From assembly GCF_003660165.1 (NCBI RefSeq), contig NZ_CP032828.1:620001-684000 (forward strand): a stretch of DNA of 64,000 nucleotides, given 5' to 3'. Position numbers and translations under genes: made by a program. Positions 4,906 through 13,994 of the stretch are shown here, one piece after another. The notes beneath the pieces were generated by a model. It searched no databases and was not told the origin of the DNA. It saw only the letters and a list, made by a program, of their open reading frames with translations. This DNA comes from Sphingomonas paeninsulae (GTDB lineage Bacteria; Pseudomonadota; Alphaproteobacteria; Sphingomonadales; Sphingomonadaceae). Positions within the stretch are counted from its first letter, which is position 1. Every line of letters begins with the position of its first letter.

Positions 4906-5699
4906 ATGGCAACGTCACCCTCGATCCTGACCACGCTCGGCGTGGGCTCGGGCATCGACACCAAAGCGCTTGTTGCCAATCTCGCGGCAGCAGCGCGCGC
5001 CAATCGCGACACGGTGCTAACCAGCGCAGTCACCAGCAACACGGCCAAGATTTCCTCACTCGCGACGATCACGTCTTCGCTGGCGGCGTTTGCCAGTACG
5101 TTTGACGTTGATTCACAGGACGCGACAGTAAGCACGGCGAAAATAGCCCAGGAATTTGTGGCCGGCTTTAACGCGTTACGAGCCATGATTGCGACCGCTA
5201 CCGTAGTCGGTGCCACGCCTGCAGATTCGGGACCTCTGCTGGGGACAATGGCCTTCGAAGTGCGGCACGAGCGCTTGCCGCACTTCCGCAAACGGTGCTT
5301 GCGGGAGGCACGACGGCCAAGTCTCTTAACGATCTGGGGATTGCGACCAACCGCGATGGTTCTCTACGGCTTGATGCAACCAAGCTTAACACTGCAATCG
5401 CGACTGATCCGAATGGCGTTCGCGCTATGTTGACCGCTGCGGGGGGCCTCGATCAGGCGCTCGGGACGGTCACGACCGCTCTGACAGCCAATGACGGCGT
5501 GTTGGGCATTAGTACGGCACGCTACACGAGGATGGCTGGAACACTGAAAACCCAGCAGGATCAGGTCAACACCGACAATGCAGCGTTGATTGATCGATTG
5601 ACGGCATCCTTTACCGAAATGGACAAGGCGGTTGCGCTTATCAAATCGAGCCAAGCTTACCTCACGCAGCAGATCGCGTCCTGGAACAGCACGAAGTGA
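4906..5699 (+). CDS. fliD: Flagellar filament cap protein FliD, internally deleted and frameshifted
   Basis: FliD caps the growing filament and folds flagellin. The first frame gives the classic start (TLGVGSGIDTKALV) and runs to SGPLLG; the rest (DNGLRSAARALPQ, then DLGIATNRDGSLRLD and a C-terminal coiled helix ending SSQAYLTQQIASWNS) continues in the next frame. Adding one G to the GGGG at 5241-5244 joins the two halves without loss, so a sequencing or slippage indel is likely there. Independently, the joined product is only about 265 residues where FliD is usually about 450: the N-terminal coiled segment passes almost directly into the C-terminal D1 region, so the variable middle domains D2/D3 are missing. 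fliS follows, its GTG start overlapping the stop. Confidence 0.8.
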
Positions 5700-8976: not shown

Positions 8977-9669
8977 CTAAATGGTCGGGTCGATTGACAA
9001 TCGATACCCTAAGCCGGGTTCGGTCAGAATGAACCTGGGATCGCTCGGATCTTCCTCAATCTTTTGTCTCAGCAGACCGATATAGACACGTAAATATTGG
9101 GTATCGGCGGCCCCTTCGGGCCAGCCAGCCTCTAAGAGCCGCTTGTGCGTCACGACTTGGCCGCCGCTTCGTGCCAGCGTGACAAGCACATCATATTCTT
9201 TTGGCGACAGTTTGATGGGTTGGCCTTCGATTGTGACATGACACGCGGAAAAATCGATCATCAGCGGGCCCGATCGATAGGCGTTACCATCGGTATGGAC
9301 AGCCGTACGTCTGCGAAAGGATGCCCTGATTCGGGCCATAAGTTCGCCGATCTCAAAGGGTTTATCGACGTAATCGTCTGCACCATCATCGAGCGCCGCG
9401 ATTTTCTCAGCCTCCTGATGGCGAGCTGAAATCACGATGATCGGAACATCACGGCGCAAGCGAAGGCGCTGGATGACTTTCTTGCCATCAAGATCAGGAA
9501 GTCCAAGATCCAGAAGAATAAGGTCGGGTGCGTAAGTGTCGTCGGCGACGAGAGCGGCGCGTCCATTGATGGCGGTCGTGACCTTGTAACCTGCAGCGCA
9601 CAAGACAGGCTCAAGAACCGCCAGCAGAGAGGGCTCATCGTCGACGATGAGGATGTGACGCCTGTTCAC
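8977..9669 (-). CDS. kdpE: KdpE-like response regulator
   Basis: OmpR/PhoB-type response regulator, 230 residues. Receiver domain at the N-terminus with the acidic pair in ILIVDDEPS, phospho-acceptor Asp54 (LLDLGLPD) and a conserved Lys in VDKPFE; winged-helix DNA-binding domain at the C-terminus (LSPKEYDVLVTLARSGGQVV, then LRVYIGLLRQKIEEDP). The sequence style is that of KdpE, which activates the potassium-pump operon kdpFABC. The start is a GTG at 9669 overlapping the kinase stop in a four-base GTGA, so kinase and regulator are coupled. No kdpFABC genes are in the window, so the target is unproven. Confidence 0.88.
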   Translation of the reverse strand: MNRRHILIVDDEPSLLAVLEPVLCAAGYKVTTAINGRAALVADDTYAPDLILLDLGLPDLDGKKVIQRLRLRRDVPIIVISARHQEAEKIAALDDGADDYVDKPFEIGELMARIRASFRRRTAVHTDGNAYRSGPLMIDFSACHVTIEGQPIKLSPKEYDVLVTLARSGGQVVTHKRLLEAGWPEGAADTQYLRVYIGLLRQKIEEDPSDPRFILTEPGLGYRLSIDPTI

Positions 9670-11171
9670 GTGTGTTGTTCTGCCAAGGGAAGGCGAATGA
9701 CAATTTGAGTGCCGTGTCCCTCGATTCCTGGGATGTGAGCCGATATTCGGCCCCCCATCGCTTCGACAAAGCCATTGGCAATGGCGAGCCCAAGACCACT
9801 GCCACGTGGCGATGGCTCGACCCGTGCAACGCGTACGAAGCGTTCGAACACCCGCTTCAGATCGGTCACCGGGATGCCTTTGCCCTCGTCCGTCACGCTT
9901 ACGACGCAAGCATCATTCTCTTGGGCTGCCGACACATGAATTCGGCTGCCATCGTCACTGTACAAAATTGCATTCTCCATCACATTGATAAGCACCAGTT
10001 CGAAAAGTGCCGTGTCAGCAACAACGGTCAGATTTGGATCTGCGGATTTCGTAATGACCCGCGAGCCGGCGCGGGATTTCAGGTGCACGATTGCGGCGCC
10101 AATCATATCCGCAACGCTCAGCGTTTGCAGTTGCGTAGAGACATGTCCCGCTTCCAATCGACTCATTTCGAGCAAGTTTGCGGTATAACGATTTAGGCGC
10201 TCGCATTCGGCGACAATGCCGCGAAGTAACGTTGAGCGGGTGGCGTCATCCAGCCGGTCACGAAATTCGATCAGGCTGGAGGCCGACGCGCTAATCGCAG
10301 TGAGGGGTGTCCGAAAATCATGGCTGACCGACGATAGTAGTGCGGTCTTGAGTTCCTCTGTCCGCTCTGCGGCTCGCCGTTCGGCGAGCCCGCGCGATAG
10401 CGCCGCGCGCTCGATTGCGAGCGCTATGATATTCCCCAGCGCCGCAATAAATTCTGGAGCGGGACGATGACTGTCCAGGCCTGTAGCAACCATTACCCCG
10501 ATAGGCCCATAGCTACCGTTGAGGCGCCGAGCCAGAATAGTCCCGTCTTTGCACTCGCCCTGAACGAGCGCCGACCGCGCGATTGCAGCCGAGTTGTCGA
10601 TTTCCGTTGGGCCGACGGCGCACAGCGTACCGTCCGCCAACTCAAAAATATCCAACATAACTCCCAACTGATCGGGGGCGACTCGGGTGACGATCGATGC
10701 CACGTCCTCGACGCGGACCGCCGATTGCAGCGCCTCGCTTGTTGCCAGCAATCCTGTCAGGTGACCGTTACTGACGCGCGCAGCACGCGCTCGATCATTG
10801 AGACGCCCGGCGAGAACCCCGGTAACGACGGCACACAGGTTGAAAACAAGCAGAGTGGCGACATCGCTGCCACTTGCGAGCCTGAAGGTAAGGACTGGCT
10901 CAGCAAGGTAAAAATTGAAGAGGAGAAAGGCGGCAATCGACGCCAGAAGAGCCGCGGCCAAACCGCAAACTGCGCCTGCAATGGTAATGCCCAGAACGAA
11001 TATGAGGGCTGATGCAACTTCGCCAAGATCGGGTTTGGCTGCGATCCCTGCTCCCAAAGAGGCGGCAACGATAAGCAGCGTGGCTAAGAATTCGCTGCCA
11101 CCCAGATGGAGATTCAACGCGGTCCAGAAGGGTCGTATGGACTTGGTGGCTCCAATCGTCGTGGCGTTCAC
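9666..11171 (-). CDS. kdpD: KdpD-like sensor histidine kinase lacking the N-terminal KdpD/Usp domains
   Basis: Membrane sensor kinase of 501 residues, about half the usual KdpD length. It starts directly with the four-helix DUF4118 membrane domain (about residues 25-125), then a GAF-like linker (about 145-260), a HisKA box with the phospho-acceptor His284 (SVSHDFRTPLTAIS), and a HATPase domain (N box INVMENAI, G boxes DEGKGIP and GSGLGLAI). The KdpD signature domain and the universal-stress domain that sense potassium and second messengers are absent. GTG start at 11171. Upstream lies 220 bases of non-coding DNA. It may be a DUF4118 kinase outside the potassium system. Confidence 0.85.
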   Translation of the reverse strand: MNATTIGATKSIRPFWTALNLHLGGSEFLATLLIVAASLGAGIAAKPDLGEVASALIFVLGITIAGAVCGLAAALLASIAAFLLFNFYLAEPVLTFRLASGSDVATLLVFNLCAVVTGVLAGRLNDRARAARVSNGHLTGLLATSEALQSAVRVEDVASIVTRVAPDQLGVMLDIFELADGTLCAVGPTEIDNSAAIARSALVQGECKDGTILARRLNGSYGPIGVMVATGLDSHRPAPEFIAALGNIIALAIERAALSRGLAERRAAERTEELKTALLSSVSHDFRTPLTAISASASSLIEFRDRLDDATRSTLLRGIVAECERLNRYTANLLEMSRLEAGHVSTQLQTLSVADMIGAAIVHLKSRAGSRVITKSADPNLTVVADTALFELVLINVMENAILYSDDGSRIHVSAAQENDACVVSVTDEGKGIPVTDLKRVFERFVRVARVEPSPRGSGLGLAIANGFVEAMGGRISAHIPGIEGHGTQIVIRLPLAEQHT

Positions 11172-11397
11172 ATCAAATACTTTCTGGTCTGCAGCGGCGA
11201 ACTAAGGTTGGAAGGCCATAAACCCGCCGCTGCAGTGAGTGTCCAGCGGTATACCTCGGAGCGGAGGTGTTCGGGCCCCGCTGGAACGCCTTCATTCTGG
11301 GATCACCGCAGGCGTCAGTCCATGCATATAAAAGCTATAATAACGCCCGTCGTTATCTGGACGTAATCGCTTCCCTGCTGAAAAGGGGAGGTCGTTG

Positions 11398-11894
11398 GTG
11401 CGCATATATATGCTTTGGCTAGTCACGCTCGGGTTTACCATTTCGGGCTGCGCAAAGAAGGCGCATATTGCGATGAACATGGGGCCGCCTGTCACACGGG
11501 ACAGGCAGGCGACGTCGTCGCTTGGCGTCAGAAAGCTTTGGTTGATGCCGCTGGTGCCGACCGTGTTTTGTTTGAACTCGATTCTACCACGCTAACGGCC
11601 CAAGCCAGAGCCATCCTAAGGCGACAGGTTCGCTGGCTTGTAGAAAATCCCGAGGTTGCCTTCACGATCGAGGGCCATGCCGACGAGCACGGTACGCGAA
11701 ATTACAACCTTGCGCTTGGCGATCGCCGTGCAACCTCGGTTGCCAGCTTTATGTCAGGGCTGGGTATCTCGACCAGCCGCCTGCAAACCGTTTCTTACGG
11801 GAAAGAAAGGCCGGAAGCGACGGGGGCTGATGAAGCCTCATTCGCTCAGAACAGACGCGCTGTCAGTGTCGTTCTCAGTTCAGTGGAGTTCTGA
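11398..11894 (+). CDS. pal: Pal-like peptidoglycan-associated lipoprotein, frameshifted
   Basis: Pal anchors the outer membrane to peptidoglycan as part of Tol-Pal. The N-terminal frame has a lipoprotein signal with lipobox TISGC followed by AKK; the OmpA-like peptidoglycan-binding domain is in the next frame (DRVLFELDS, VAFTIEGHADEHGTRNYNL, GKERPEATGADE, QNRRAVSVVL). Adding one G to GGGG at 11481-11484 gives one continuous protein of about 165 residues. The GTG at 11398 has a strong GGGGAGG six bases upstream. A second lipoprotein gene follows two bases later. Tol-Pal genes tolQRAB are not nearby, so this is probably an additional Pal. Confidence 0.8.
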
Positions 11895-11896
11895 AT

Positions 11897-12291
11897 ATGG
11901 ATTTCCGAAACTGGATAGCGATTGGCGCTATGGGAATTTCCGCTGCAGCTTTGGCTGCATGCGGGGGACGACCACAGACGTAGACTCGATTTCGTTCAAT
12001 AAAAATGCTGAATATGAGGAGGTCACATCAGAGACGAGCTCACTTCAGCCCTTGGTCAAACTTAATCGTCGCTATCTTTGCCGGGACGCTCGCATCGTTC
12101 AGGTCAGCTTTATGGATGACGATGTATCCGCCGAACTCGAAACCAAGAACAATACAGAAATCGTCGTGTTGACCGCCGCCGTAAGTGGCGGAATGGATTT
12201 TACAGGGCACGGGTATGTCTTGAATGGAAGTGGCGAAGAGATAACGTTTAAACGTCCGGGGCAACCGAGCACCCAGTGCAAGGCCAGTTGA
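11897..12291 (+). CDS. MliC-like lysozyme-inhibitor lipoprotein, frameshifted
   Basis: The start (ATG 11897) encodes a lipoprotein signal peptide with lipobox LAAC, but that frame stops at 11983. The next frame carries a beta-rich domain with the pattern of membrane-bound c-type lysozyme inhibitors (MliC/PliC): an early YLC, an acidic SFMDDDVSAEL strand, a central SGG with GYVLNG, and a terminal TQCKA Cys. Adding one G to GGGGG at 11963-11967 joins signal and domain into about 131 residues (lipobox then GGTTTDVDS). The role would be protection of the cell wall from host or competitor lysozyme. It is probably co-transcribed with the Pal-like gene. The MliC assignment is by pattern only. Confidence 0.55.
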
Positions 12292-12430
12292 TCAAGCCTT
12301 TGGGGTTGATATGGTTTCATGTCGGGAAAGCGACGATTGCGTCGCGGTGGCTCGATACGCATCTATGATAACTTAGGAGCAGACCTCACGCTTTCCAAAT
12401 TGGTGTTGTAGGAGTTGAGTTCTGGAAACG

Positions 12431-13945
12431 GTGTCTATTGTCTTGATCCTGCTGCTGGCGGTTGTCATCAGCAGTGCTGTTTCGCGCATGCTACCGGTGT
12501 CGATCCCGACGCCGCTTGTGCAAATCGCCTTAGGCGCGCTGATCGGACTCGGCGTCAATCAGCGTGTGGAGCTTGATCCAGAGCTGTTCCTTCTCCTTTT
12601 CCTGCCGCCGCTGCTGTTTCTGGATGGCTGGCGAATACCCAAGGATGAATTGCTCAAGGATCTTTCAACAGTCGTCGAACTGGCGCTTGGCCTCGTTCTG
12701 TTGACGGTCGTGGGTATGGGCTTCCTGATCCACTGGATGATCCCGGCAATGCCGCTGGCAGTCGCATTTGCGCTTGCGGCGGTCATTTCGCCAACGGACC
12801 CGATCGCCGTTTCCGCAATCGCCGCACGTGTGCCGATCCCCAAACGGATGATGCATATTCTCGAAGGCGAATCCCTTCTGAACGACGCATCCGGGTTGGT
12901 CTGCCTGCGTTTCGCGATTGCTGCTGCCCTTACAGGCAGCTTTTCGGCCTCGCAGGCGGCGCTGAGCTTCCTGTGGATGGCGGTCATTGGAATCGGCGTG
13001 GGGGTTGTACTGACGCTGGTCGTCACGCGCGCCAAGGCCTGGGTTTCCGAGCGCTTCGGTGAGGAAACCGGATCGCAGATCCTGATCAGTCTGCTTATTC
13101 CATTCGGATCGTACCTGCTCGCCGAACATTTCCATGCTTCGGGGATTCTCGCTGCAGTGGCTGCGGGTGTGACGATGAGTTTTGCCGAAATATCACGACA
13201 GGCGCTCGCTATGACGCGGATGGGTCGTAATTCGGTGTGGGACACAATCCAGTTTGCCGCAAACGGGATCATCTTCGTCCTTCTCGGAGAGCAGCTCCCA
13301 GGGATACTTTCAGGCCTTGACGAGACGGTGCAGATGACCGGGCACGCCAACCCATGGTGGCTGGCCTTTTACGTCGGCGCGATCATGGTCGGGCTGGCTG
13401 TTCTTCGCTTCATCTGGGTCTGGGTGTCGCTGCGGATCACGTTGCTCCGTCAAGCGCAGAACGGAGCAACACCACCGAGAGCGCCGTGGCGTCTGGTGGC
13501 CACAATGTCGTTTGCCGGCGTGCGTGGTGCAATCACCTTGGCGGGTGTGCTCACGCTGCCGCTCGTAATGGGTGATGGAACGCCCTTTCCCGGTCGCGAG
13601 CTTGCCATATTTTTGGCCACCGGTGTGATATTGCTGTCGCTCGTGATGGCCAGCGTGGTGCTTCCAATATTGCTTTGTGATCTGAAGATGCCGGCCGAAC
13701 CCTCAAAGCAAGCCGAGGAGAACAAGGCGCGGATTGCGGCCGCTGAAGCTGCGATCAATCTTCGGGCTGATTATGAAGTTCGTGACTGGGGAGCTACGCT
13801 TTCTGTTTTTGTGACAAACGCGTTCAATAAACATTATCAAATTGCGGGGATCGCTCAGCCAAATACTGGCGGTATTGCAGCCGGCATTACCGGTGAACCG
13901 CGCATGATGGACGTTGGCTTCCGCAAAGCCTTTGGCAGCGAATAG
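12431..13945 (+). CDS. CPA1-type Na+/H+ antiporter fused to the C-terminus of a TonB-dependent receptor
   Basis: Residues 1 to about 440 are a complete-looking cation/proton antiporter of the CPA1 (NhaP/YjcE-like) family: about twelve membrane helices, the ion-binding segment AAVISPTDPIAVSAI, ESLLNDASGLV, and a late FAGVRGAITLAG helix. It ends in a soluble stretch (EENKARIAAAEAAI) that should continue as an antiporter tail. Instead the last ~60 residues read like the final strands of a TonB-dependent receptor: WGATLSVFVTNAFNKHYQIA, then EPRMMDVGFRKAFG. The join is near base 13755. No stop or frame change marks it. Start is a GTG. A hairpin follows the stop. The tail cannot form a barrel in this context. 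Confidence 0.85.
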   Translation: MSIVLILLLAVVISSAVSRMLPVSIPTPLVQIALGALIGLGVNQRVELDPELFLLLFLPPLLFLDGWRIPKDELLKDLSTVVELALGLVLLTVVGMGFLIHWMIPAMPLAVAFALAAVISPTDPIAVSAIAARVPIPKRMMHILEGESLLNDASGLVCLRFAIAAALTGSFSASQAALSFLWMAVIGIGVGVVLTLVVTRAKAWVSERFGEETGSQILISLLIPFGSYLLAEHFHASGILAAVAAGVTMSFAEISRQALAMTRMGRNSVWDTIQFAANGIIFVLLGEQLPGILSGLDETVQMTGHANPWWLAFYVGAIMVGLAVLRFIWVWVSLRITLLRQAQNGATPPRAPWRLVATMSFAGVRGAITLAGVLTLPLVMGDGTPFPGRELAIFLATGVILLSLVMASVVLPILLCDLKMPAEPSKQAEENKARIAAAEAAINLRADYEVRDWGATLSVFVTNAFNKHYQIAGIAQPNTGGIAAGITGEPRMMDVGFRKAFGSE

Positions 13946-13953
13946 CTTGATTT

Positions 13954-13994
13954 CGGCAATCCGCGAGCAGCCGAGTGGCGCTCGCGGATTGCCG
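13954..13994. terminator. Bidirectional hairpin terminator
   Basis: Perfect 15-bp inverted repeat: CGGCAATCCGCGAGC at 13954-13968 and its reverse complement at 13980-13994, with an 11-base loop. It lies between the convergent antiporter/TonB fusion gene and the MaoC-like gene, the place for a shared terminator. No long T run follows on either strand. Confidence 0.7.

Follow-up and report, generated by a model that had tools for sequence, protein, structure and literature searches.

A chimeric antiporter–receptor open frame in Sphingomonas paeninsulae, most likely a recent breakpoint scar

The chimeric frame and its two parts

We analyzed a 64,000-nt stretch of the Sphingomonas paeninsulae genome (contig NZ_CP032828.1, here C2, positions 620,001 to 684,000 of the forward strand; hereafter, the window). 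A single forward-strand open frame of 504 codons, running from a GTG start at 12431 to a stop codon ending at 13945, joins 442 codons of an a_cpa1 Na+/H+ antiporter (12431–13757), one shared codon, and 61 residues resembling the C-terminus of a TonB-dependent receptor (13759–13945, stop codon included). The last base in common with an intact antiporter copy on C2 is 13758 and the first receptor base is 13759; this exact join, within codon 443, lies three bases from the position near 13755 estimated in an earlier sequence-only reading. That such a join falls in frame is a 1-in-3 chance and in itself unremarkable.

On the left, the frame is preceded by genes for a KdpE-like response regulator (8977–9684, reverse strand, start approximate, named because of its sequence and the kinase gene paired with it), a KdpD-like sensor kinase (9666–11171, reverse strand, with DUF4118, HisKA, and HATPase matches and no match to the N-terminal KdpD domain), a Pal/OmpA-like lipoprotein (11415–11894, forward strand), and a small forward-strand gene, X. 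A second version of this four-gene block (window 8977–12291), 68% identical, lies on the largest contig at C3:1629415-1632729 (L008), where it is followed by an open frame that by eye resembles a fragment of an IS3-type transposase (L008:336-617). On the right, the chimeric frame converges with a gene for a MaoC-like dehydratase (PF13452; 14000–14917, reverse strand), the first gene of the right-hand catabolic segment. The hairpin that the earlier reading had placed between their ends (13954–13994) is well formed, with perfect 15-bp arms (13954–13968 and 13980–13994), a folding energy of −38.4 kcal/mol, and a z-score of −5.4; it has no T run, and a promoter and terminator scan gave no signal above chance. 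Farther left in the window, a FliD-like flagellar cap gene at 4906–5699 appears short and divided into two overlapping frames, adjoining fliP/fliR/flhB-like genes (all named by eye from translations).

The antiporter portion was correctly recognized from the sequence: residues 4–443 match TIGR00831 (a_cpa1) with 364.6 bits against a cut-off of 279.6. The match covers profile positions 1–432 of 525 and stops short of the C-terminal cytoplasmic part that belongs to a full-length a_cpa1 protein, whereas the intact copy is matched over positions 1–522. The membrane domain is nearly complete (Na_H_Exchanger, chimera residues 11–415, profile positions 4–373 of 375), and the only other Pfam match in the 504-residue protein is a sub-threshold one to DUF543; no plug domain was found. 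The available passages of a study of two related exchangers report that Vc-NhaP2 and Syn-NhaP1 become less active when the soluble cytoplasmic C-terminus is deleted (PMC6567090). Since the cytoplasmic tail is lost and an intact copy remains, we expect that the product, if made, would consist of a membrane domain without its conserved tail and would probably be inactive or weak; the intact copy would supply the function. An AlphaFold model of the chimera (mean pLDDT 49.8) is too uncertain to inform this question.

The last 61 residues alone gave no Pfam match, and the PF00593 barrel domain was not detected in them. A search with this tail in 397 family genomes (E ≤ 1e-5) returned, besides its own place, nine matches in eight genomes other than that of the window, all in open frames of 739–944 residues (one with an in-frame TAG), at 38–46% identity (44% for the match with the best E-value). 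In 17 aligned loci the matches lie at the C-terminal ends of the frames, PF00593 was found in all nine frames scanned with Pfam (nine of the 17 loci), and the aligned ends have common patterns such as FVTN.xNKxY and GEPRM. The assignment of this segment to the end of a TonB-dependent receptor, first made by eye, is thus borne out.

We looked for the body of the receptor elsewhere in the genome and did not find it: among 62 PF00593 matches, we saw none that represents a gene missing only this tail, and each short-profile candidate whose end was read finishes in a C-terminus of its own, in several cases beyond a frameshift. The ends read were C2:353235, C2:562334, C2:679404, C2:556841, C3:72414, C3:1786040, C3:2288394, and C3:1576952, together with the split pairs C3:819759/820595 and C3:2019432/2020184; the remaining matches, including the split pairs C2:339176-340503 and C2:266427-267775, were assessed from the extent of the profile match and the frame length alone. 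Frameshifts appear to split several TonB receptor genes (C2:353235, C2:339176-340503, C2:266427-267775, C3:1786040, C3:1576952, C3:819759-821071, and C3:2019432-2020774), indicating that other gene decay or sequencing errors are present in this genome. Close to the beginning of C2, a gene for an RND-type efflux pump (C2:4605-6935, L195) also appears, by eye, to be broken into several frames.

A second, intact antiporter copy on C2

Searching the genome that contains the window revealed a second copy of the antiporter. A 1381-bp segment of the window (12378–13758; hereafter, R), which begins 53 bp upstream of the antiporter start codon and ends within codon 443, recurs in the same orientation 268,474 bp away at C2:363904-365284 with 1380 of 1381 bases identical. 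The sole difference, at 13693 (G in the window, A in the intact copy), falls at the third position of a proline codon and is synonymous, so that no sequence decay is visible between the copies. Both ends of R are sharp, and nothing detectably common to the two sites was found directly outside it. At the second site the antiporter gene is complete (C2:363957-365582, 541 residues). Because the gene is whole at this near-identical site, the antiporter in the window is, judged by its sequence, a truncated duplicate joined at 13758/13759 to a gene remnant. Either the duplicate arose recently or recombination has kept the two copies alike. A mobile element was considered as the source of R and rejected, as no repeat is common to both of its ends and inspection by eye of the open frames listed near the two copies showed no transposase.

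The earlier proposal of a rearrangement as the cause of the join is supported; the near identity to an intact gene 268 kb away limits what a deletion can explain. The sequence-only reading had attributed the join to the loss of most of a receptor and of the antiporter's end; given the duplicate, such a deletion is insufficient alone and can have been at most the last step.

Antiporter homologs were collected by a public-genome scan that yielded 257 relatives, from which the best 80 were kept, mostly titled Sphingomonas, Novosphingobium, Sphingobium, or Sphingopyxis; three chosen genomes (G344, G418, and G033) brought the set to 83 loci. All of these best 80 of 257 homologs keep the native C-terminus; 75 have the motif RELDL, and the other five have a variant form. 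The receptor tail occurs in none of the 80 (best chance match, E 1.5), so that the case, raised beforehand, of close homologs carrying the same extension was not seen, and a conserved fusion family was rejected. Alignments that extend to residue 494, read in L034 and L067, represent native coil.

Neighborhoods of the two sites and the structure of C2

The window copy has kdpE and kdpD (reverse strand) and ompA and gene X (forward strand) on its left, and the intact copy has two small genes and then a reverse-strand CYTH/CHAD gene on its right. In one relative, G344, selected because its kdp genes and antiporter had neighboring coordinates, a single cluster contains kdpE, kdpD, ompA, the antiporter, and the CYTH/CHAD gene, with matching relative order and orientation. 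The presence of the kdp side at the window copy, the CYTH/CHAD side at the intact copy, and both together in G344 suggests that a single ancestral locus was divided and that each part retained a copy of R. This history has a single supporting relative, whose proteins are 51–72% identical and in which an acyltransferase gene lies between ompA and the antiporter, at the place of gene X in the window.

The kdp block was found within ~10 kb of the antiporter in eight of the 83 loci (seven of the 80 scan loci, themselves the best 80 of 257, plus G344), and a CYTH/CHAD gene in one, G344 itself. At the other seven kdp-linked loci, all Sphingomonas (L034, L036, L037, L038, L042, L046, and L056), the antiporter instead directly follows kdpD-kdpE and ompA is divergent, an order that speaks against the split and hints that a KdpDE-like system may control the antiporter there. 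Also against the split, in searches for both proteins across the family, which scored at most four candidates per genome in one search and three in the other, only two of the 28 other genomes with a close antiporter also had a close KdpD, adjacent in G344 and ~215 kb apart in G279. Other intact-site genes are linked, if weakly, to antiporters in relatives (RsgA in 1 of 83 loci and hyp13276 in 4 of 83), which likewise counts against it. The other six same-genus genomes have neither a close antiporter nor a close KdpD and hold only parts of the intact-site region, chiefly the CYTH/CHAD gene of G003, which is 75% identical and has no antiporter within the 20 kb read; they therefore give no view of an empty site. 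Given this arrangement in G003, the CYTH/CHAD gene may predate the antiporter at the intact site, which speaks against the split and slightly lowers our confidence both in the explanation of the chimera as a breakpoint scar and in the plasmid fusion considered below.

In two Sphingobium loci (L052 and L053; 2 of 83), the antiporter is immediately followed by a TonB receptor gene of the same strand; the ends of these receptors look different and gave no match to the tail of the chimera, and none of the 83 antiporter loci has a MaoC match within its ~10-kb flanks. A close MaoC was found in 2 of 396 other family genomes, G122, where a receptor lies beside it on the same strand, and G369, where none was seen.

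Replicon C2 is ~850 kb long, and the two direct copies of R divide it into arcs of 268 kb and 581 kb. C2 has a single AAA_31 (ParA) match, located at 442.8 kb in the 268-kb arc beside a gene that is ParB-like by sequence; no such match was found in the 581-kb arc. The plasmid-type ParA is 80–87% identical to those of ten listed plasmid records of 22–265 kb, nine from Sphingomonas or Sphingobium and one from Croceibacterium. The last gene of C2 takes its stop codon from the first bases of the contig, with a 4-base ATGA overlap with the frame starting at base 1, in keeping with a single closed circle. Recombination between the R copies would yield a ~268-kb circle with an intact, G344-like locus and a ~581-kb circle without this ParA. 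It is conceivable, if unlikely, that C2 is a cointegrate: a plasmid of ~268 kb, carrying a par operon and an unbroken kdp-antiporter-CYTH/CHAD locus, would have merged at the antiporter gene with another ~581 kb of DNA. If so, the two direct 1.38-kb copies of R would be the scars of the fusion, and the plasmid could still be excised by recombination across them.

Origin of the chimera and comparison with known systems

We consider it likely, with good though not full confidence, that the frame represents a chimeric pseudogene marking a rearrangement breakpoint on C2, its intact parent gene persisting at the second site. A replicative or illegitimate event would have left R at two places, perhaps splitting an ancestral locus arranged as in G344; one copy of R belongs to the intact gene and the other runs into the last 61 codons of a receptor, the reading frame probably having been kept by chance.

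A possible, less probable route to the same scar has two steps: a whole copy of the antiporter arose beside a downstream receptor, and one deletion then took the 3′ end of the antiporter together with most of the receptor. The same-strand receptors of L052 and L053 keep such a final deletion in play, although their dissimilar ends and the lack of a MaoC match at all 83 loci speak against it. Only the route differs from that of the breakpoint explanation; the outcome is the same chimeric scar.

We regard as improbable a mis-resolution of the assembly across the 1381-bp direct repeat, in which the true molecules would be kdp-ompA-X-antiporter-CYTH/CHAD (intact) and rsgA-R-receptor tail, for example as circles of ~268 and 581 kb. 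Swapping the flanks at R does restore the G344-like order, and the smaller arc does hold the plasmid-like ParA with its ParB-like neighbor; however, the join of R to the receptor tail exists even then, the 581-kb circle would be left without that partition protein, and the closure of the last gene across the contig ends is consistent with one circle. Either a past plasmid fusion or an assembly error across the repeat would give this appearance. The near-identical direct repeats, which on this secondary replicon bound the arc with the ParA gene, are a marker, if of modest value, that makes a replicon-fusion history testable. Least probable is a functional chimera, kept for changed antiporter activity with the receptor tail as a new cytoplasmic end: the frame is open, its exchanger domain is nearly complete, and 53 bp of upstream DNA were copied too, but the conserved C-terminal tail is lost, the added strands come from an outer-membrane barrel, and the fusion was seen in no other genome searched (397-genome family search; best 80 of 257 homologs).

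Compared with known systems, the chimera resembles a_cpa1 antiporters (TIGR00831) over residues 4–443 and in its membrane domain, and the genome's intact copy is a full-length match, but profile positions 433–525 are replaced by 61 foreign residues. These residues align with the C-terminal ends of TonB-dependent receptor barrels (PF00593), but the plug and nearly the whole barrel are missing, and no receptor function is expected. We caution against annotating frame 12431–13945 as a novel fusion of antiporter and receptor. Rearrangement breakpoints with chimeric pseudogenes are a generally known kind, and here too an incomplete copy of an intact gene adjoins the remnant of another gene; the present case differs in being in frame, probably by chance, and in having no mobile element visible by eye at either end of the copy. 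A recent breakpoint scar of this known kind is the most likely explanation.
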